In this document: one piece after another, positions 2,016 through 56,166 of the stretch
How the letters are laid out: each line of letters opens with the position of its first letter
Position numbering within the stretch: position 1 is the stretch's first letter
Source: Betaproteobacteria bacterium Ga0077540
Lineage (GTDB): Bacteria; Pseudomonadota; Gammaproteobacteria; Burkholderiales; Methylophilaceae
NCBI GenBank assembly: GCA_001464125.1
Contig: LNEP01000012.1
Span: forward strand, 124,001-188,000
Direction: 5' to 3'
Length of the DNA: 64,000 bases
Translations under genes and position numbers: made by a program
Notes under the pieces: generated by a model
Databases searched by the model: none
Seen by the model: only the letters and a program-made list of their open reading frames with translations
What the model was told of the DNA's origin: nothing

Positions 2016-4109
2016 TTAACTGGCTAATTTGGATAAATCAGCCACGCGATTCATGGCTTGATGCAATTGATTGAGCAACGCCAAGCGATTGTTTTTCAAC
2101 GCCATCTCTTCTGCATTGACCATCACGTTGTCAAAAAATGCATCCACAGGCGCTTTAAGCACAGCCAGCGCCTGCAGAGAGGCAGTGTAATCACCGGCTT
2201 CAAATAGTTGATCGGCTTTTGGTTTCACTTGTTTTAATGCCTCAGCCAAAGCTTGTTCGGCAGGCTCTTTAAGTAAGTTGGTGTTTACTTCTGCTGCAAT
2301 TGCACCTTCTACCTTTTTCAGAATATTGCCTACGCGTTTATTGGCTGCAGCGAGTGCGGGCGCCTCTGCCAAACCAGCAAAGCTACGTACAGCAGCCAAA
2401 CGGGCTGGCACTTCACTGAGCAACTCTGGCGACAAGGCCAATACTGCGTCTACCTCTTGCGCACTGGCGCCTTGGTCACGTAAGTTGACACTTAAACGGT
2501 CATAGCAAAATTCTTTAATGGCGGACAATGTGCTTTTATCGCCAGAAAACTGGGCTAAAGCAACATTGAACAATGCATCTAAAGACATAGGCAGTTTGGT
2601 GTCAATCAACATCCTGATAATACCCAATGCTTGTCTACGTAATGCAAAGGGGTCTTTGTCACCTGTTGGCTTTTCACCTATGCTAAATAAGCCTACCAAG
2701 GTTTCAAGCTTGTCCGCTAAGGCGACCACCATACCCACTTGATTGCGTGGCAAATCATCACCTGCAAACCTTGGTTTGTAATGGTCTTCAATTGCAAACG
2801 CCACATCACCATCAAGCTTTTCATACTGCGCATAGTAGCGCCCCATTATGCCTTGCAACTCTGGGAACTCACCCACCATATCCGTCAGCAAATCGACTTT
2901 AGATAAGCGCGCAGCCAGTTCTACTTTGGCGGTTAATGGTGGATTAATTTGTTCGGTAATCGCTTTAGCAATTGCCACCACGCGCGCATTACGCTCACCT
3001 TGGCTACCTAGCTTATTGTGGTACACCACTTTGGCCAAACCATCCAGACGGCTTGCCAGCGTTTTTTTGCGGTCTTGGTCAAAAAAGAATTTGGCATCGG
3101 CCAACCGTGGACGCACCACACGCTCGTTACCCCCAATCACTTTGGAAGGGTCGGCTGGCTTAATGTTTGACACAATTAAAAACTTATTGGTTAATTTGCC
3201 ATTCGCATCCAGTAATGGAAAATATTTCTGATTAGCCTTCATGGTCAAAATCAGGCACTCTTGTGGCACTTCTAAAAATTCTTGCTCAAATTGGCCAAGC
3301 AACACATTCGGAAACTCCACCAACGCAGTCACTTCATCCAGCAAAGCCTCATCTTCAATTGGTGTTAAATTTTCCCTTGCCGCAGCAGCTTGCAACTGAC
3401 GCACAATTTCAGCCTTACGCGCTTCAAAGCTAGCAATTACTGCACCCTCATCTGCCAGCTGCTGTGCATAGCTATCGGCAGATTGGAGTTGAATTTCAGC
3501 AGCTTTCGCCTCAAAGCGATGGCCTTGCGTAGTGTTACCAGCAGTCAAACCCAATGTGCTAACAGGCACCACATTACTGCCATGGAGTGCCACCAAACCA
3601 TGCGCAGGACGCACAAAATTAACGCTATCCCAGCCATCACGCAATTGATAAGTCATCACTTTTGGAATAGGCAATTTTGCCAGTGCCTCACCTAATGCAT
3701 GTTGTAAACCTTCTTGCAGCGTTGCACCCGCTTGGGTGGCATCCAAGAACAAAATTTCGGCTTTACCGTCATTTTCCTTGCGTAGCTTTGCCACGGCAGA
3801 TTCATCTGCGCCTAAGGCTTGTAATTTCTTTACTAATGCGGGGGTTGCAATACCGTTGGCATCTAGGCCAACACTCGCTGGCATCAATTTTTGTGCTACT
3901 TGTTTATCTGCCGCTTTGGCTGAAACTGCTGTCACATGGGCTGCCAACCTGCGTGGTGTGGCGAAGTGAGTTACCGCACTCGCATCGGCGGTTAAACCTT
4001 GTGCTTTGAGCGCTTCAAATAAGACTCCTGCAAAAGACTCACCCAATTTTTTGAGTGCTTTGGGCGGTAGCTCTTCTACAAATAATTCAACTAATAAATT
4101 GCTACTCAT
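2016..4109 (-). CDS. glyS: Glycyl-tRNA synthetase beta subunit
   Basis: Beta chain of the alpha2beta2 bacterial glycyl-tRNA synthetase, 697 aa, full family length. The N-terminus [18 protein letters not shown] is the family signature. The middle HD-like region includes [20 protein letters not shown] and [18 protein letters not shown], and the C-terminal part is a helical tRNA-binding DALR-like domain ending [20 protein letters not shown]. It overlaps the end of glyQ by 4 bases (ATGA), so the two subunits are translationally coupled. No anomalies were seen. Confidence 0.97.
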
Positions 4110-42387: not shown

Positions 42388-43499
42388 CCAACAACTTGCG
42401 TGTCGCAACTGGGCTAGCAAGAGGTGTCACCGCCAGCCCCACACTTGCCACTGAGGCCGTACAGCGTGCAATGGAAAAAGCAAATATAGAGTCAGCACAG
42501 TGCGTTTTACTGTATTTCACATCTGAGTTTGCGCATGCACCCCAAGCTGCCATTCGCGCCGCATCTAAGGCTGCGAATTGTACTCAAGTGATTGGCTGCT
42601 CAGCCGTAGGTATTTTTACTGAGGAAGATTGGGTACTGGATGGTGCAGCGGTAGCAGCATTGGTGTTATCTCAAGATATTTTCACTAGCCATCCTAATCA
42701 ACTAGTCAATAGTGAGTACCTACTTACGCTTGCCGCACCTAGTGCAATGAATGCTAGCTGGTTATCTAGTCAACAGTTAAGATTTGGTGCAATTTCCGGG
42801 GATGCCACTGGGCATGGCGCATTTTCTGTATGGCAAGATGGTAAAGGTGTTTCGCAAGGCTACTGTGCCTTAGGCATACAACATGCGCCTGTTGCCGTCT
42901 GTGTAAGTCACGGTCTCAAATGGTTATCAAGCCCCAGAAAAGTCACCAGTAGTCAGGAATTTGACTTACTTTCTGTGGCTAATGTGACGGCACTTCAAAG
43001 CTTGGTAGCAGCGTATCAACCTATGAGTCTAAATGACGACGCTTTGCCGCTACATTTGCTCAACATTGCGTACGCACCCTCAGCCAAGGATTTAGCTTCT
43101 GAACAATATCAGTTAGCAAGTATTGTCATCTCTAATGACAACCATCAAAGTTTGACACTCTCACAAGCGATTCCCAATGGTTATTGGATACGTTGGGCGA
43201 TTAGGGACAGCGCATGTGCGCAAATAGACTTACGCGACGCAACAAAGATACTTGCAGATAAACTGCCTACAGCGCCAGCTTTTGCATGCATATTTTCATG
43301 CATGGCTCGCGGCCCTTATTATTATGGTGGCGATGATGAGGATCTGAATTTACTGACTGCACAACTTCCTAATCTGCCGATTATTGGCTTTTATGGCAAT
43401 GGTCAAATTGCCCCGATGATGGGCAAAAATACGTTATTGCAACACTCCATCGTACTAGCACTTTTTGGCCAAACAAAGGATGTGTATGAGTCTGTTTAA
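42384..43499 (+). CDS. FIST-domain sensory protein
   Basis: 371 aa with FIST_N (about 10-200; CTQVIGCSAVGIFTEEDWVL) and FIST_C (about 215-350; CIFSCMARGPYYYGGDDEDL, LPIIGFYGNGQIAPMMGKN) domains. FIST proteins are proposed small-ligand sensors linked to signalling; there are no kinase or cyclase domains here. It overlaps nth at its start and DUF1841 at its end, so translation is coupled across nth-FIST-DUF1841. Confidence 0.85.
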   Translation: MTNNLRVATGLARGVTASPTLATEAVQRAMEKANIESAQCVLLYFTSEFAHAPQAAIRAASKAANCTQVIGCSAVGIFTEEDWVLDGAAVAALVLSQDIFTSHPNQLVNSEYLLTLAAPSAMNASWLSSQQLRFGAISGDATGHGAFSVWQDGKGVSQGYCALGIQHAPVAVCVSHGLKWLSSPRKVTSSQEFDLLSVANVTALQSLVAAYQPMSLNDDALPLHLLNIAYAPSAKDLASEQYQLASIVISNDNHQSLTLSQAIPNGYWIRWAIRDSACAQIDLRDATKILADKLPTAPAFACIFSCMARGPYYYGGDDEDLNLLTAQLPNLPIIGFYGNGQIAPMMGKNTLLQHSIVLALFGQTKDVYESV

Positions 43500-43929
43500 T
43501 CCTAGCCGTGATGAAGTGCGCGCATTCTTCTTTGATGCTTGGTCTAAATTTAACGCACAGCAAACACTCACTGATTTAGAGAAATTGGGGGTGTCGATTA
43601 TGCACATGCACCCTGAATATCACGACATACTGAACAACGCAGAACGCTACCAACATCAAGCCTATTTCCCTGAAATGGGTGAGACCAACCCTTTTCTGCA
43701 CATGAGCTTGCATCTATCAATTTTGGAGCAGCTCAGCATAAACCAGCCAACTGGCATTACACAGATTTATCAACAATTAAAAGCCAAACACCAGAATGAA
43801 CACGATGCCCAGCATGATTTGCTGGAGTGTCTGGCGGAAACCATCTGGCTGGCGCAACGCAACCAAACACCACTAGACGCAGCGCACTATTTACACTTAA
43901 TGCAGCAAAAAGTGGGGACTATTGCTTAA
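43486..43929 (+). CDS. DUF1841 family protein
   Basis: 147-aa conserved proteobacterial protein of unknown function. Family features are FNPSRDEVRAFFFDAWSKF, VSIMHMHPEYHDILNN and FPEMGETNPFLHMSLHLSIL. The chosen ATG has AAAGGA 5 bases upstream, and overlaps the FIST gene by 14 bases. Helical, cytosolic. The gap to the sigma-factor gene is 19 bases. Confidence 0.88.
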   Translation: MSLFNPSRDEVRAFFFDAWSKFNAQQTLTDLEKLGVSIMHMHPEYHDILNNAERYQHQAYFPEMGETNPFLHMSLHLSILEQLSINQPTGITQIYQQLKAKHQNEHDAQHDLLECLAETIWLAQRNQTPLDAAHYLHLMQQKVGTIA

Positions 43930-43948
43930 TCGCATTGAAAGTGATTGA

Positions 43949-44512
43949 ATGCTTGGCATGAAAACACCCAACGTACATGACTGGCTCACCGAACATAGTG
44001 ATTATCTTTATCGATTTGCATTAGCACGATTACGAGGCCCGCACATGGCGGAGGATGTCGTACAAGAAACATTCATTGCCGCCATCAAAAGCACCAGCTT
44101 TGCTGAACAGTCTTCCCCACGCACTTGGCTCACAGGGATACTCAAACATAAAATCATTGATCTCATGCGTAAGAACATCCGCGAGATTGCAGCCAGTGAT
44201 TTGATGCATGAAGAAGATGCCAATATGGATGAGTTTTTTGATGAGGCCGGCCATTGGTCGGAGAAACCACTGGCTTGGGATATCCCGCATGACGCGCTGG
44301 AGCAAAAGCAGTTTTTGGGGATATTGCAGCAGTGTATGGAGAAACTACCCAACAAACTCGCCACCTTATTTTTAATGCGTGACATTCATGAAACCGATAA
44401 TGAAGAAATTTGTAAGGAACTGGAAATTACCACGACCAATGCTTGGGTGATGTTGTACAGAGCCCGAATGGGGATCAGAAAGTGTTTAGAAATGCATTGG
44501 CTACAGGCTTAA
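43949..44512 (+). CDS. ECF-type RNA polymerase sigma factor (RiPP cluster regulator)
   Basis: 187 aa with sigma-70 region 2 (about 10-75: YRFALARLRGPHMAEDVVQE, RTWLTGILKHKIIDLMRK) and region 4 (about 122-178: KLPNKLATLFLMRDIHETDN, EEICKELEITTTNAWVMLYR). A long acidic linker joins them. It belongs to the group often found beside DUF692/DUF2063 genes (TIGR02943-like, as I recall). The following small zinc-finger gene is its evident anti-sigma partner. Likely activates the downstream precursor and maturase genes under metal or related stress, which is inference. Confidence 0.88.
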   Translation: MLGMKTPNVHDWLTEHSDYLYRFALARLRGPHMAEDVVQETFIAAIKSTSFAEQSSPRTWLTGILKHKIIDLMRKNIREIAASDLMHEEDANMDEFFDEAGHWSEKPLAWDIPHDALEQKQFLGILQQCMEKLPNKLATLFLMRDIHETDNEEICKELEITTTNAWVMLYRARMGIRKCLEMHWLQA

Positions 44513-44537
44513 CGATTGAGAAAAAGGAAAGGTGAAC

Positions 44538-44789
44538 ATGTTAAATTGCAAACAAACAAGTCAACTTGTTTCTCAGTCCCTGGACCGTCGCCTGACATGG
44601 CAGGAACGATTTGCCGTCAAAGTGCATCTATGGATATGTAAATATTGCAGGCGTTTTAGCCGGCAATTATTGGCTGTGCGGTCTGGCTTACAACGCATGA
44701 CCCAATCTGTGGAAGAGAACACTGATTTACAGATGCCTTCGGAATCAAAAGCACGCATCGCTAAAGTGTTAGAGTCAGAATTGAAATAG
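44538..44789 (+). CDS. Zinc-finger anti-sigma factor
   Basis: 83 aa with a zf-HC2-type anti-sigma signature: an early Cys (LNCKQTSQLVSQSLDRRLTW) and HLWICKYCRRF supplying His and two Cys. No membrane helix, so it is soluble. The ATG has AAAGG 5 bases upstream, and a GTG two codons earlier is an alternative. It follows the ECF gene by 25 bases; by zinc-binding anti-sigma analogy, its Cys residues could sense metal or thiol stress. Confidence 0.82.
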   Translation: MLNCKQTSQLVSQSLDRRLTWQERFAVKVHLWICKYCRRFSRQLLAVRSGLQRMTQSVEENTDLQMPSESKARIAKVLESELK

Positions 44790-44843
44790 TTTATTGTGAC
44801 AACAATACTGAGCAAACTTAACTTAACTTAAAAGGAATCCATC

Positions 44844-45149
44844 ATGAAATCAAATACATCTTTGTTAGCAGCTGGCGCAATCGCATTAAGCATGGGTGCT
44901 GTCAGCCTTCAAGCTGGTGAAAACCCATTTGCAATTCAATCACTCTCAAGCGGCTATCAAGTGGCAGACCATCATGAAAAAGGCATGGATGGTAAATGCG
45001 GTGAGGGCAAATGTGGTGCTGAGATGAAAGACAAAGAAGGTAAATGTGGTGAAAAAATGAAAGACGGCAAATGCGGTGCCGAATCTAAAATGAAAGATGG
45101 CAAATGCGGCGAAGGTAAATGCGGCGCAGAAATGAAAAAAGACAAGTAA
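44844..45149 (+). CDS. hvfA: HvfA-like RiPP precursor, Cys-repeat periplasmic peptide
   Basis: 101 aa. A Sec signal peptide (LLAAGAIALSMGAVSLQA, cleavage near AGEN) is followed by a conserved-looking NPFAIQSLSSGYQVADHHEK leader/spacer and a low-complexity core. The core has six Cys, each in a GKCG unit preceded by Glu or Asp (three DGKCG and three EGKCG), interspersed with K/M/D/E. This matches the HvfA/EGKCG class of precursors whose Cys are converted to oxazolone-thioamides by an MNIO enzyme, known to bind copper in HvfA and bufferins. Directly followed by the maturase gene, 20 bases away. Modification and copper binding here are inferred. Confidence 0.85.
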   Translation: MKSNTSLLAAGAIALSMGAVSLQAGENPFAIQSLSSGYQVADHHEKGMDGKCGEGKCGAEMKDKEGKCGEKMKDGKCGAESKMKDGKCGEGKCGAEMKKDK

Positions 45150-45169
45150 TTGATTCTTAAAGTAATCTG

Positions 45170-46090
45170 ATGCCAATCCTGGCAGACAAAAAGCTACAAG
45201 GAGCTGGTTTGGGGCTAAAGCGCGAGCTGATTCCCCAAATCCAGCAACTGCATCAAGATACCAGCCTTCATCACCTGCAATTTGTAGAAATTGCGCCAGA
45301 AAATTGGTTGGGCGCAGGTGGCAAAGCCCTGCACGATTTAGCATGGTTTGTGGAGCGATATCCAGTTGCTTGCCATGGCTTATGCTTATCCCTTGGTGGC
45401 CCTGATCCACTGAATGTTGCATTCTTAAAGCGCGTTAAAGCCTTTTTGCAGATGTATGAAATCCCCCTTTATACCGAGCATTTGAGTTATTGCAGCGATG
45501 TTCATCAAGGTAGCCCCGGTTATTTGTATGACTTGCTTCCAATTCCGTTTACTGAAGAAGCGGTGCATTACGTCGCCAAGCGTATACAACAAACACAAGA
45601 TATTTTGGGTCAGCGCATTGCGGTGGAAAACGCTTCTTTTTATGCGGCCTGCCCAATTTCCAGCATGGATGAAATTACATTTCTCAACGCGGTCTTAGAA
45701 GAAGCAGATTGCTGGCTGCATTTAGATGTCAACAATGTCTATGTCAACAGTGTGAACTTTGGTTTCGACGCCCATCACTTCTTGCGTCAAATTCCCGGAG
45801 AACGCATTGTGTATGGCCATATTGCTGGGCATCACCAACAAAGTCCGGATTTATTGATTGATACCCACGGCAAAGATGTGATTGACCCAGTTTGGCAACT
45901 ACTTGACACTGCATATAGCTTATTTGGCACTTTTCCAACCTTGCTGGAGCGCGACAGCAATATCCCGCCACTCACAACCTTGATGGCTGAGGTGAATCGT
46001 ATCGCTAAATATCAAGCATCGCATGGCTATCAAAAAGACTGTTTGGCGTCTGCGCAATCAACACTGCCTAACATAGTCTCGTTCGCCTAA
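45170..46090 (+). CDS. hvfB: MNIO (DUF692) RiPP maturase, HvfB-like
   Basis: 306-aa DUF692 enzyme of the multinuclear non-heme iron oxidase family, TIM-barrel type. Candidate metal ligands: H69 (ACHGLCLSL), H104 with E103 (YTEHLSYC), the Glu/Asn of RIAVENASF, Asp in WLHLDVNNVYVNS with the His of FDAHHFL, His of VYGHIAGHH, Asp/His of IDTHGKDVID, and Glu of LLERDSNIPP. It should oxidise Cys of the upstream peptide. It overlaps the DUF2063 partner by one base. Confidence 0.92.
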   Translation: MPILADKKLQGAGLGLKRELIPQIQQLHQDTSLHHLQFVEIAPENWLGAGGKALHDLAWFVERYPVACHGLCLSLGGPDPLNVAFLKRVKAFLQMYEIPLYTEHLSYCSDVHQGSPGYLYDLLPIPFTEEAVHYVAKRIQQTQDILGQRIAVENASFYAACPISSMDEITFLNAVLEEADCWLHLDVNNVYVNSVNFGFDAHHFLRQIPGERIVYGHIAGHHQQSPDLLIDTHGKDVIDPVWQLLDTAYSLFGTFPTLLERDSNIPPLTTLMAEVNRIAKYQASHGYQKDCLASAQSTLPNIVSFA

Positions 46091-46845
46091 TGACCGCATT
46101 GCCAGATTTCCAACAATATCAATTGGCGTTTACCGCGCACATACGCCAACCCGCCGTTTACAATAAACCTGCAAAAGTACCTAACAAAACAATGGCTGTA
46201 TACCGCAACGCCATTTTCAATAACTTTTTAAGTATTGTTTCAGCCTGCTTTCCTGTTACCCAGCAAGTACTTGGGGTGCGCGCATGGAAAAAGTTGGTAC
46301 GACGCTTCGTCGCCGAGCATGCAGCTACCACGCCAATTTTTAAGGATATTCCACTTGAGTTTGTGCAGTTCTTGGCCAAATTAGAAGATATCCCTGCCTA
46401 TCTGCAAGCACTCACGCATTACGAATGGGTGGAGTTGGCAGTTGCCTATCAGACAGCTGAGAATGAGGTGGTGAGCAGGCAAGAGACAAAGCCAGATTAT
46501 TTAGATGAGATACCGCAGTTTGCGGCACATCAGTTGCTGGCTTACGACTATCCTGTCCACCAGATATCAAAAAAGCATATTCCGGATACCCATATTCCCA
46601 CCTTCTTATTGGTGTATCGCAACCAAGCATTTGAAGTTAAATTTGTTGTGCTCAACCCAGTCACCTACCGCTTACTTAGCTTATTGAAAGCCGAACCTTG
46701 TACCGGGAGACAAGCGCTCACAAAGCTAGCACAAGAACTTCAACAACAAGACGTTAATGCGATACTCCAATTTGGCTTGGATATCTTACTTGATTTAGCA
46801 TCGCAGCAAGCATTCATAGGCACCACCAAGACTAACGAGCGCTAA
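46090..46845 (+). CDS. hvfC: HvfC-like DUF2063 RiPP maturation partner
   Basis: 251 aa. The N-terminal DUF2063 domain has LPDFQQYQLAFTAHIRQ, KTMAVYRNAIFNNFLSIVSA and ACFPVTQQVLGVRAWKKLVR. The C-terminal half (about 150-250) includes FLLVYRNQAFEVKFVVLNPV and PVTYRLLSLLKAEPCTGRQA, resembling a winged-helix or precursor-recognition element. In related systems this partner binds the leader and pairs with the MNIO enzyme. Starts within one base of the hvfB stop. No DoxX-type (HvfD) gene follows; the run ends at a hairpin before a convergent gene. Confidence 0.88.
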   Translation: MTALPDFQQYQLAFTAHIRQPAVYNKPAKVPNKTMAVYRNAIFNNFLSIVSACFPVTQQVLGVRAWKKLVRRFVAEHAATTPIFKDIPLEFVQFLAKLEDIPAYLQALTHYEWVELAVAYQTAENEVVSRQETKPDYLDEIPQFAAHQLLAYDYPVHQISKKHIPDTHIPTFLLVYRNQAFEVKFVVLNPVTYRLLSLLKAEPCTGRQALTKLAQELQQQDVNAILQFGLDILLDLASQQAFIGTTKTNER

Positions 46846-46884: not shown

Positions 46885-46906
46885 AACCCCAGCACTGGCT
46901 GGGGTT
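46885..46906. terminator. Hairpin terminator between the RiPP cluster and DUF1289
   Basis: AACCCCAGC-actg-GCTGGGGTT is a 9-bp GC-rich stem. On the minus strand it is followed by T6 and should terminate the DUF1289 transcript well. On the plus strand only an interrupted T tract follows, so it is a weaker end for the RiPP operon. Confidence 0.75.
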
Positions 46907-55266: not shown

Positions 55267-56166
55267 TTAAGCGGCCAAGGGCTTACCGGTGAGCTTTTCG
55301 AATGCTTCTAGATACTTATCTGAAGTACGTTTGGCGACATCGTCAGGCAACGCAGGTGCTGGCGGTGTTTTGTTCCAGCCCGTGCTTTCCAACCAGTCGC
55401 GCACGTATTGCTTATCGTAGCTAGGTGGATTTTTGCCCACTTGGTAACTCTCTAACGGCCAGAAACGTGAGGAATCCGGTGTCAGCACTTCATCCATGAC
55501 ATGCAGGACACCATTCGCATCAAGCCCAAATTCAAATTTGGTATCTGCGATGATAATGCCTTTAGTTAAGGCATACTCTGCGGCCTCTTTATACAACTGC
55601 ACTGCCACTTTGGCCACCTCAGCTGCGCGCTCAGCTCCAATTAAATCAGCACACTGCGCTAGGGTAATATTCTCATCGTGTTCACCTACAGCAGCCTTAC
55701 TGGAAGGAGTAAACAGTGGCTCTGGCAATTGTGAAGCCTCTTGCAAGCCCTCTGGCAACGCAATACCACATACCGTCCCTTTGGCTTTGTACTCTTTCCA
55801 ACCACTACCCACCAAATAGCCACGCACAATTGCCTCGATAGGTAAGGGTTTAAGTTTTTTCACTACTACAGCACGGCTACCCAATTGCGCTTTATCTTGT
55901 GCATTTGACACCACGCTATCAGGGTCAATACCGGTAAGATGATTGGGCACAACGTGCGCCAATTGTTTAAACCAAAAATTAGCCATCTGCGTCAGCATGG
56001 CACCTTTGTTCTGAATACCCGTCGGTAAAATCACATCAAACGCAGACAGACGATCGGTACTAATCAGCAACATGGTATTGGCGTCAATATCGTAAATATC
56101 GCGCACTTTGCCTCGATGAATACGTTTAAGGCTGCTGAGGCTAGTGTTCAGTAATGGTGATGTCAT
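55267..56166 (-). CDS. purC: Phosphoribosylaminoimidazole-succinocarboxamide synthase
   Basis: SAICAR synthase of purine synthesis, 299 aa, with C-terminal length typical of the bacterial/yeast-like longer type. Blocks: HRGKVRDIYDIDANTMLLIS, STDRLSAFDVILPTGIQNKG, VRGYLVGSGWKEYKA, and IIADTKFEFGLD, MDEVLTPDSSRFWP for ATP and metal binding. It lies downstream of pyk (129-base gap) in the conserved tkt-gap-pgk-pyk-purC order. Confidence 0.97.
   Translation of the reverse strand: MTSPLLNTSLSSLKRIHRGKVRDIYDIDANTMLLISTDRLSAFDVILPTGIQNKGAMLTQMANFWFKQLAHVVPNHLTGIDPDSVVSNAQDKAQLGSRAVVVKKLKPLPIEAIVRGYLVGSGWKEYKAKGTVCGIALPEGLQEASQLPEPLFTPSSKAAVGEHDENITLAQCADLIGAERAAEVAKVAVQLYKEAAEYALTKGIIIADTKFEFGLDANGVLHVMDEVLTPDSSRFWPLESYQVGKNPPSYDKQYVRDWLESTGWNKTPPAPALPDDVAKRTSDKYLEAFEKLTGKPLAA

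Follow-up and report, generated by a model that had tools for sequence, protein, structure and literature searches.

A captophorin-type operon of Methylophilaceae with its own ECF sigma/zinc anti-sigma pair and a predicted promoter inside the sigma factor gene

The window analyzed here, one 64,000-nucleotide stretch of DNA, contains five genes that by sequence form a captophorin (HvfA-like) cluster of the EGKCG type in a Methylophilaceae genome. A captophorin cluster with MseR-like control is known in kind; what appears unusual is the promoter, which apparently lies inside the sigma factor gene. Our main reading, to which we assign a probability of about 0.78, is that this metallophore operon is under the control of its own ECF sigma/zinc anti-sigma pair, with a predicted promoter inside the sigma gene. 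The gene identities, the conserved order, the ligands of the anti-sigma factor, the motif and the constraint at DNA level can be read directly from the sequence. All five ORFs, termed SIG, ASF, precursor, MNIO and partner below, are present in single orientation at 43949..46845 (Table 1).

Table 1. Positions of the genes and predicted elements in the window
Feature	Position	Strand	Evidence
SIG, ECF sigma factor, TIGR02943 family	43949..44512	+	Pfam/NCBIfam matches; relatives
Predicted SIG-dependent promoter in the region-4 codons of SIG, facing ASF and the RiPP genes	44412..44438	+	Matrix, pattern, codon constraint
ASF, soluble zinc-finger (ZAS) anti-sigma factor, 83 aa	44538..44789	+	zf-HC2; NF052368
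Exported precursor peptide, 101 aa	44844..45149	+	NF050137; relatives compared by eye
MNIO (DUF692) RiPP-modifying enzyme, HvfB type	45170..46090	+	PF05114; NF003818; PDB 3bww
Partner, DUF2063 + RRE-type protein, HvfC/PME1 type	46090..46845	+	PF09836; PF22106 NGO1945_C; NF050145
Terminator-like stem-loop between the partner gene and the convergent DUF1289 gene	46885..46906	.	Consensus scan

SIG contains Sigma70_r2 (4.5e-15) and Sigma70_r4_2 (2.5e-11) domains and scored 197 bits with TIGR02943 (cut-off 162.2); it is 90% identical to SIG of Methylophilaceae bacterium 11. Judged from relatives compared by eye, translation probably begins at the internal ATG at 43958. ASF matched zf-HC2 (1.7e-6) and NF052368 (76.3, cut-off 50). 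With one Hx3Cx2C motif, an upstream Cys and an adjoining ECF gene, it fits the ZAS proteins of the MseR/RsrA kind; the ligands Cys4, His30, Cys34 and Cys37 are invariant in all 17 family members aligned. Outside these 17, inspection by eye revealed Ser at the position of Cys37 at locus L063 and a truncated ASF at L068. No hydrophobic or transmembrane segment was found in ASF by eye.

In the precursor, a Sec-like signal (by eye) and a conserved NPF...L..GYQVA stretch come ahead of six Cys, which lie in [DE]GKCG motifs. Its score of 47.4 bits with NF050137 (cut-off 19.5) places it among the Cys-rich exported precursors of captophorin clusters, whereas it reached 38.6 bits with the HvfA equivalog NF050188 (cut-off 95) and is therefore not HvfA proper. 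In several Methylophilaceae precursors, many repeats have turned into EGSCS or EGACS (by eye, uncounted). MNIO is of the HvfB/BufB kind (PF05114, 2.8e-100; NF003818, 394 with a cut-off of 360; PDB 3bww, 1.2e-71). The partner matched PF09836, PF22106 and NF050145 (237, cut-off 142), as a DUF2063 + RRE protein (PME1) does. The gaps within the unit are 25, 54 and 20 bases, followed by a 1-base overlap, and the DUF1841 gene in front ends at 43929, 19 bases before SIG. The stem-loop behind the unit is only suggestive, because the scan returned 5 such sites versus 4.4 in shuffles. No DoxX gene is present in the operon. The assembly has two DoxX matches elsewhere, and DoxX was rejected as a missing operon member: no MNIO was seen in the 3.2 kb surrounding either match. 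Behind the partner gene of L034 and of L049 there is a DoxX gene that has a motif of its own.

The original prediction had described this unit as an HvfA-kind MNIO RiPP cluster of a methylotroph, with its own ECF sigma factor, a soluble zinc anti-sigma factor, a Cys-repeat precursor, DUF692 and DUF2063 proteins and no DoxX, and had put the gaps at 20-55 bases before a final 1-base overlap. The profile matches, the measured distances and the absence of a hydrophobic segment in ASF bear this out. The co-occurrence that it proposed to look for in the family was found as well: 47 of the 52 loci with an MNIO close to that of the window (window included) have all five genes matched nearby on one strand, so the unit is not a chance assembly. 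SIG is in pieces in three of the 47 (L057, L063 and L068), and these three do not enter the counts of SIG codons and motifs; of the remaining five loci, L074 is cut by the contig end, and L044, L064, L065 and L081 have no SIG/ASF pair there. Among 10 named Methylophilaceae loci, L213, L215 and L217-L220 duplicate counted loci, and L214, L216, L221 and L222 are additional. The five-gene order was also found in other families in our surveys, and ASF-like matches lay at most 5 kb from an MNIO gene in 32/73 (150 genomes of the order). The surveys beyond the family rule out the anti-sigma link as a methylotroph-specific trait.

That link had been regarded as one that could not be placed. However, as described in PMC2893595, the meningococcal rpoE operon NMB2140-2145 comprises a DoxX-like gene, three then-unknown genes, rpoE and mseR, and the ZAS anti-sigma factor MseR was shown to act on sigmaE. 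The gonococcal counterpart NGO1948-1943 makes the thiooxazole peptide gonophorin (PMC13097082). Like the Neisseria operon, the window encodes an EGKCG precursor, MNIO, DUF2063 partner, ECF sigma factor and ZAS anti-sigma factor (PMC2893595, PMC13097082), and Cys4, His30, Cys34 and Cys37 of ASF stand at the same positions as in MseR (PMC2893595). With the same genes present there in another order, the linkage of sigma and anti-sigma factor is of a kind already known. In Neisseria, DoxX comes first, the sigma/anti-sigma genes come last, the promoter lies in front and the sigma factor is autoregulated (PMC2893595). Different from this, SIG comes first in the window, DoxX is absent, the promoter apparently lies inside SIG and none of the SIG type was found upstream. 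Of the traits that mark the Neisseria sigmaE operon, DoxX and the terminal position of the sigma/anti-sigma pair are lacking, and for msrAB in the regulon no SelR match was found in the 88.6% complete assembly. Loci L198 and L207 show the Neisseria gene order.

Haemophilus influenzae RpoE2-HrsE also pairs an ECF sigma factor with a small ZAS anti-sigma factor controlling an MNIO operon; there, the DoxX/DUF692-type/DUF2063 operon (HvfA, oxazolin) is away from the sigma gene and includes DoxX, and msrAB is the linked target (PMC7907618). Fontiphorin of Fontimonas and other captophorins share the EGKCG repeats with MNIO and PME1 (PMC13097082), but the window precursor mixes DGKCG and EGKCG. The Gig systems of Cupriavidus and Legionella and the bufferins of Caulobacter (PMC12452194 for the bufferins) are similar in being MNIO operons linked to copper or gold. 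Buf1 clusters have sigma factors with the anti-sigma factor NrsF (PMC12452194), whereas the window has a ZAS anti-sigma factor and an EGKCG precursor; no Pfam family, including the DUF2282 of Buf1 precursors, matched the precursor at E 0.1, and MNIO stayed below the cut-off of the BufB model (268 vs 310). Titles and abstract starts of the papers found mention neither the Methylophilaceae arrangement nor an internal promoter in this ECF group; subscription papers were mostly beyond reach and absence is unproven.

The promoter was located with a matrix built from 15 training sites, none of them SIG-internal. Eleven precede, in the same orientation, genes for SIG, thioredoxin, precursor, MNIO-cluster, DoxX or EF-hand proteins; the target of the other four is not named. 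The matrix motif agrees with the meningococcal sigmaE consensus GTMAGBWTT-N12/13-CGTCTAAH (PMC2893595). Among ~128,000 positions of the window, the site inside SIG scored best (19.6; next, 14.6). It consists of the -35 box GTAAGGAAC, a 12-nt spacer and the -10 box CGACCA, and it is the single exact match to GTMAGGAW-N13-CGWCYA in the 2.33-Mb assembly. At sequence level, SIG is thus a sigma gene that carries a predicted promoter of its own group, facing the anti-sigma gene. This promoter was absent from the original prediction. Upstream of SIG (43201-43980), no SIG-type promoter was found, the best + strand matrix score being -0.7. A SIG promoter in front of SIG or between ASF and the precursor gene was rejected: an earlier pattern, GTAAGNAWT-N10-14-CGNCNA, gave 4 genome matches versus 2 in the reversed control, which were taken as chance. 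With C as its ninth base, the internal site had escaped this pattern. The conserved sequence [AG]TG[AG]TTGAAT just before SIG, considered as a SIG promoter or mini-ORF, was also set aside; it occurs in 14 of the 44 family loci (stretch examined).

The internal site scored at least 14 in 43 of the 44 intact family SIG genes, with limits (14, and 13.9 below) that were set after the scores were seen, and ranked first in 40/44. The exception, L041, has external promoters instead; among the 44 loci, it alone has a site of at least 14 in the 500 nt before SIG or between ASF and the precursor gene. Of the SIG genes in pieces, that of L063 scored 20.7 and that of L068 11.9, and L057 has nothing reaching 11.

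A rival account is an ordinary captophorin operon, with one five-gene transcript from an upstream promoter, the motif being a by-product of the conserved peptide C-K-E...T-N. The small intergenic gaps fit it, and read-through from upstream alone could express the operon. Random synonymous recoding of SIG equaled or beat the window site in 265 of 20,000 draws (p 0.013; median p 0.028 across the 44 family loci), which is modest, as the encoded amino acids on their own already make the motif likely. The -10 box, which is mostly CGACCA although a synonymous ACT codon would yield CGACTA, also counts against a promoter. However, the third positions are fixed at exactly both boxes: synonymous identity at TGT + AAG is 1.00 versus 0.52 expected, and at codon 162 it is 0.97 versus 0.25. 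Ahead of Thr-Asn the residue may be T, P, A or S, yet its codon is always NCG; the two other loci are L089 (Lys) and L041. Together with the external promoters of L041, this makes the ordinary operon an improbable explanation.

Nowhere else in the four genes tested is synonymous conservation nearly as strong as in the promoter codons. Mean excess synonymous identity over SIG codons 152-164 is 0.36, compared to 0.11 in the next separate 13-codon window of SIG and to maxima of 0.14 in ASF, 0.15 in MNIO and 0.08 in partner; L041 was left out of this test owing to its divergent SIG and was included in the per-codon identity test. The same demand on these codons might come from an RNA structure, a pause in translation or a site for some other regulator: codons 152-154, directly before the -35 box, are constrained too, and the transcription start is a predicted one. 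Since the constrained codons fall into two parts, whose letters and spacing are those of the motif that precedes other genes, and the two halves are not mutually complementary (by eye), we consider this very unlikely.

SIG genes without an MNIO nearby have NCG at position 162 in 24 of 26 cases (expected 7.2). This persistence also suits an ordinary operon; under the internal-promoter reading, it suggests that ASF is the primary target of the promoter and that the RiPP genes are served only where they lie behind it. We lean towards a self-addressed sigma gene, in which the codons of the region-4 helix-turn-helix would also be the promoter that this helix reads. As parts of that reading, and with the same leaning, the promoter need would shape SIG codons in at least 14 Methylophilaceae genera and beyond, and active sigma factor would raise the anti-sigma gene, and the metallophore genes where they follow, but no more sigma factor, as an automatic brake. 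Perhaps the residues are shaped as well, since K or Q is encoded by [AC]AG, matching the M of GTMAG.

Outside the family, the internal site goes with gene order. Among SIG-first loci it reached 13.9 in 14/19 and 14 in 13/19, versus 0/5 of the SIG-last loci (Fisher p 0.006 at 13.9 and 0.011 at 14, with kinship uncorrected and layout classes assigned by hand, L192 and L196 rechecked). Of the SIG-first loci without an internal site, three carry one behind ASF instead (L135, 23.9; L205, 15.5; L202, 13.2), and on that strand no site of L192 or L137 exceeds 9.4. External promoters thus accompany a missing internal site at L041 and L135 and, more weakly, at L205 and L202. L129, with its MNIO at least 3 kb away, was outside the layout comparison. 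At L196, SIG is divergent and a site of 19.5 stands in front of ASF.

A parallel to the arrangement is sigH-rshA of Corynebacterium glutamicum, where a sigma-dependent promoter in the sigma gene drives the anti-sigma gene; in addition, four housekeeping promoters transcribe sigH and rshA together (PMC3489674). This system belongs to another phylum, has the motif TGGAAGA / TGTTAAA, and its internal promoter gives an anti-sigma transcript only (PMC3489674); the accessible text of that paper contains no statement on codon-level conservation of the internal promoter. We take sigH to belong to a different ECF group from SIG.

The same genome contains a second MNIO cluster, outside the window and thus outside the reach of the original prediction. 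Exact GTAAGG-N15-CGACTA occurs upstream of the second-cluster MNIO in 17 of 30 family loci (L001 and L003-L031), where it precedes the precursor of the cluster, compared to 1/30 on the opposite strand and 0/30 in the first 900 nt of MNIO; at other spacers from 10 to 20, no such pair was found upstream of MNIO in the 30 loci. When a 1000-nt instead of a 900-nt stretch was used, L003 and L014 gained a strong opposite-strand site. Nine more MNIO loci outside the 30 were scanned (L035, L072, L073 and L075-L080), and only L035 (19.5) and L072 (23.7, a training site) reached 14. The second cluster of the genome itself has only a weak site before its precursor (11.8).

The circuit can be pictured as follows, with promoter activity, signal, modification, metal and export being what we infer. 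Expression of SIG would rely on a promoter further upstream that another sigma factor recognizes, probably with transcripts running on from the DUF1841 gene, and ASF would bind SIG until thiol or metal stress opens the zinc site of ASF (C4, H30, C34 and C37). Once released, SIG would initiate at the promoter inside its own gene and raise ASF, precursor, MNIO and partner; since ASF and not SIG is raised, the circuit would switch itself off. MNIO and partner would modify the precursor at the GKCG cysteines (thiooxazole), and the exported product would bind a soft metal, most likely Cu(I), as judged from relatives. The second MNIO cluster is probably a further target of SIG, in trans; a likely regulon that includes both of these different MNIO peptide clusters suggests that they act jointly against one stress.

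The same circuit may mainly serve periplasmic thiol/oxidative-stress defence rather than copper buffering, a tentative option that is compatible with the internal promoter. The meningococcal and Haemophilus counterparts control msrAB (PMC2893595, PMC7907618), and the latter responds to HOCl and H2O2 (PMC7907618). At L041, a thioredoxin-like gene, behind which lies a CcdA/DsbD-like gene (both by eye), has the same promoter, and a thioredoxin gene adjoins the second cluster of the genome studied here. However, meningococcal expression was unaltered by oxidative stimuli (PMC2893595), Cu binding is the general finding for captophorins tested to date (PMC13097082), and no MsrB (SelR) match was found in the assembly, which is 88.6% complete; MsrAB was accordingly rejected as a regulon member of the Neisseria kind.

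Taken as a captophorin cluster with MseR-like control, the finding can be placed precisely, and it bears on what controls these metallophores. One precedent can be cited in which the promoter of an anti-sigma factor lies within the gene of its sigma factor, the rshA promoter in C. glutamicum sigH (PMC3489674). If the internal promoter works, coding and promoter bases would be shared, with deep conservation, at the sigma factor's own DNA-recognition site, and a recoded SIG gene would silently lose the circuit.

As claimed in the original prediction, the unit consists of five ORFs in the same direction, with gaps of 25, 54 and 20 bases followed by a 1-base overlap, and the gene identities were upheld by curated models. 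The ECF sigma factor gene (SIG, TIGR02943) and the zinc-finger anti-sigma gene (ASF) are followed by genes for an HvfA-like precursor, an HvfB-type MNIO enzyme and an HvfC-type partner; the MNIO matched PDB 3bww in two stretches, together residues 10–284. For SIG, 43958 is a more probable start than 43949, because by eye its relatives align from there. Genes for a FIST protein and DUF1841 lie 5′ of SIG, the latter ending 19 bases away; a terminator-like stem-loop and a convergent DUF1289 gene lie 3′ of the unit. Just 5′ of SIG (43940–43960 in the window, and kin), 14/44 family loci carry [AG]TG[AG]TTGAAT, which could be a -10 element, a mini-ORF or an initiation signal.

Judged from sequence, the unit is a captophorin cluster of EGKCG type and ASF is an MseR-like zinc anti-sigma linked to SIG. 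According to the available text of PMC13097082, EGKCG-type clusters yield 5-thiooxazole peptides that generally bind copper, and excess copper, gold or oxidative stress often induces these clusters. In precursors such as those of loci L045, L083–L087 and L091, many repeats are EGSCS, EGACS or EGSCH instead of EGKCG, with Ser or Ala substituting for Lys before Cys, usually after a GKC pair. ASF residues C4, H30, C34 and C37 are invariant in 17/17 aligned family members; they occupy the same positions as those studied in meningococcal MseR, whose three Cys proved important (PMC2893595, available text). By eye, the L063 ASF has Ser in place of Cys37. The same source places the same families in meningococcal NMB2140-2145, in the order DoxX, precursor, MNIO, partner, rpoE, mseR, which we also found in L198 and L207. 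The Haemophilus MNIO operon is governed by a sigma of this kind that is encoded at another place in the genome (PMC7907618, available text).

The source assembly is 2.33 Mb in 15 contigs and 88.6% complete. SIG shares 90% identity with its counterpart in Methylophilaceae bacterium 11 and is close to those of Methylophilus and Methylotenera. PF05114 is present in 93/150 family genomes, and 60 regions for comparison were picked from the positive ones. Co-occurrence of the gene families in Methylophilaceae, proposed as a check, was borne out: all five genes were matched in 47 of the 52 loci with a window-like MNIO (at least 350 bits against the window MNIO). Of the other five, L074 runs into the end of its contig, and no SIG/ASF pair adjoins the precursor in L044, L064, L065 and L081; these four possess a window-type precursor and MNIO, and the matrix scan found no strong SIG-type site nearby. 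ASF-like genes occur in four of nine MNIO genomes without a window-like MNIO (G130, G083, G021 and G026; none in five) and in one (G001) of seven MNIO-free genomes.

A meningococcal-like motif scan of the fetched loci gave a group motif with a GTAAGG(A/T)-type -35, a 12-base spacer and a CG(A/T)C(T/C)A -10. Our matrix was trained on 15 sites, eleven from L041, L133–L135, L034, L049, L037, L038 and L072 and one each from L150, L161, L163 and L166; 0/15 lie inside a SIG gene.

Features of the unit, the second MNIO cluster and SIG-type sites (predicted)
Feature	Locus	Position (strand)	Remark
SIG	window	43949..44512 (+)	
ASF	window	44538..44789 (+)	
Precursor	window	44844..45149 (+)	
MNIO	window	45170..46090 (+)	
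Partner	window	46090..46845 (+)	
Internal site	window	44412–44438	GTAAGGAACTGGAAATTACCACGACCA
Second-best SIG-type site	window	55842–55868 (+)	score 14.6
Second-cluster precursor	L001 (G000 C1:193244–197023)	2391–2774 (-)	
Second-cluster MNIO	L001	1477–2328 (-)	
Second-cluster partner	L001	683–1480 (-)	
SIG-type sites	L041		before SIG; before thioredoxin-like gene; before precursor
SIG-type sites	L133, L134, L135	MNIO strand	447, 761, 627 bases upstream of MNIO
DoxX gene immediately 3′ of partner	L034	878–1399 (-)	own SIG-type site before it
DoxX gene immediately 3′ of partner	L049	6022–6552 (+)	own SIG-type site before it
SIG-type sites	L037, L038		before divergent exported EF-hand protein gene
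SIG-type site	L072		before DUF2282 precursor

The internal site, located within the 3′ part of SIG and directed toward ASF, scores 19.6, the top of ~128,000 window positions. Downstream of the runner-up, no ORF of at least 40 aa starts within 555 bases on the same strand. In the whole assembly, GTMAGGAW-N13-CGWCYA has one exact match, which is the internal site, and four more at one mismatch; the reversed control gave three matches altogether at the same tolerance. The internal site ranks first in 40/44 family loci and scores at least 14 in 43/44, spanning 14 genus labels. In ten named Methylophilaceae loci, six of them already in the family counts, it is the best site in all (10.7 to 20.1). 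L041 (G146), whose divergent SIG is without the internal site, is the only one of the 44 loci with a site of at least 14 within 500 nt 5′ of SIG or between ASF and the precursor, a gap that in this locus also holds inserted genes named by eye as thioredoxin-like and CcdA/DsbD-like. SIG is in pieces in L057, L068 and L063, where the site is not found, decayed (11.9) and intact (20.7), respectively. As DoxX with a SIG-type promoter follows the partner in L034 and L049, a DoxX link is present in parts of the family; behind the L074 partner we saw the site alone.

When the end of the window SIG was recoded synonymously at random, 265 of 20,000 versions scored as well, and the median p of such recoding over 44 family loci is 0.028; for a single gene the site does not convincingly exceed the protein-sequence effect. 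At the family level it clearly does. The top seven of 172 SIG codons for excess synonymous identity all fall in codons 152–164. The mean excess there is 0.36, compared to 0.11 in the next separate 13-codon window of SIG and maxima of 0.14, 0.15 and 0.08 in ASF, MNIO and partner (precursor outside the comparison, L041 excluded). The residue before Thr-Asn is T, P, A or S in the family, always encoded by NCG, the other two loci being L089 (Lys) and L041. Outside the family, NCG encodes such residues in 14/17 SIG-first genes (5.4 expected), 6/6 opposite-strand genes (2.2 expected), 1/2 SIG-last genes and 24/26 SIG genes without MNIO nearby (7.2 expected). Since NCG is also kept without MNIO, the constraint is tied to the sigma/anti-sigma pair, with the RiPP genes predicted to gain from the site where they are located downstream.

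The layout outside the family was compared using classes and score limits fixed once the scores were known. The internal site reaches 13.9 in 14/19 SIG-first collinear loci (13/19 at 14) and occurs in 0/5 SIG-last loci (Fisher p 0.006 or 0.011, respectively, kinship not corrected) and in 4/14 opposite-strand loci. Three of the five SIG-first misses carry a site directly 3′ of ASF (L135, 23.9; L205, 15.5; L202, 13.2); in the other two, L192 and L137, the matrix scan gave no score above 9.4 on that strand. A 19.5 site precedes ASF in L196, whose SIG and ASF genes diverge. In Rodentibacter (L225–L228), divergent GTAAGAAA[TC]-N12-CGTCTA boxes ~70 bases 5′ of the sigma gene fit the group motif.

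An ASF alignment search gave matches in 49/274 class and 70/150 order genomes. Within the order, ASF and MNIO occur together in 57 of the sampled genomes; ASF stands alone in 13, MNIO alone in 19, and both are absent from 61 (Fisher p 7e-13, without correction for kinship). An MNIO gene lies <5 kb from 32/73 ASF matches, of which 19 are upstream of it and 5 downstream on the same strand, the remaining 8 being on the opposite strand. It is therefore common for a sigma/zinc anti-sigma pair to adjoin an MNIO cluster. Buf2 clusters are reported without sigma genes in the available text of PMC12452194; in contrast, opposite-strand pairs adjoin clusters with CKG-repeat (Buf2-like) precursors in L130 and L136.

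The second MNIO cluster of the source genome (L001) has a CKG-repeat precursor and a divergent thioredoxin gene. A weak SIG-type site (11.8) precedes the precursor, and a 20.2 site precedes a gene behind the partner that encodes a small exported protein of 93 aa. Exact GTAAGG-N15-CGACTA was found 5′ of MNIO in 17/30 second-cluster-type family loci, all outside the training set, and a matrix score of at least 14 in 20/30. Controls gave 1/30 (opposite strand) and 0/30 (first 900 nt of MNIO), and no other spacer from 10 to 20 was found in these loci. Control of both clusters by SIG is thus probable.

The cluster as such is a fresh example of an already known type, and the predicted internal promoter distinguishes it within that type. 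Our literature search, mostly outside subscription papers, found no internal promoter for this ECF group. The only precedent known to us is the SigH-dependent rshA promoter within sigH of C. glutamicum, another phylum (PMC3489674, available text).

Given the observed genes, conservation, ASF ligands, motif and its DNA-level constraint, we propose one circuit. SIG would be produced from upstream transcription and released from ASF upon thiol or metal stress. Transcription would then start inside SIG near 44446, placed by the -10 to +1 distance in the available text of PMC2893595, and would cover ASF and the RiPP genes, not SIG; in Neisseria, by contrast, the sigma sits within its own induced operon (same source). 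The resulting peptide would be modified, exported and Cu(I)-binding.
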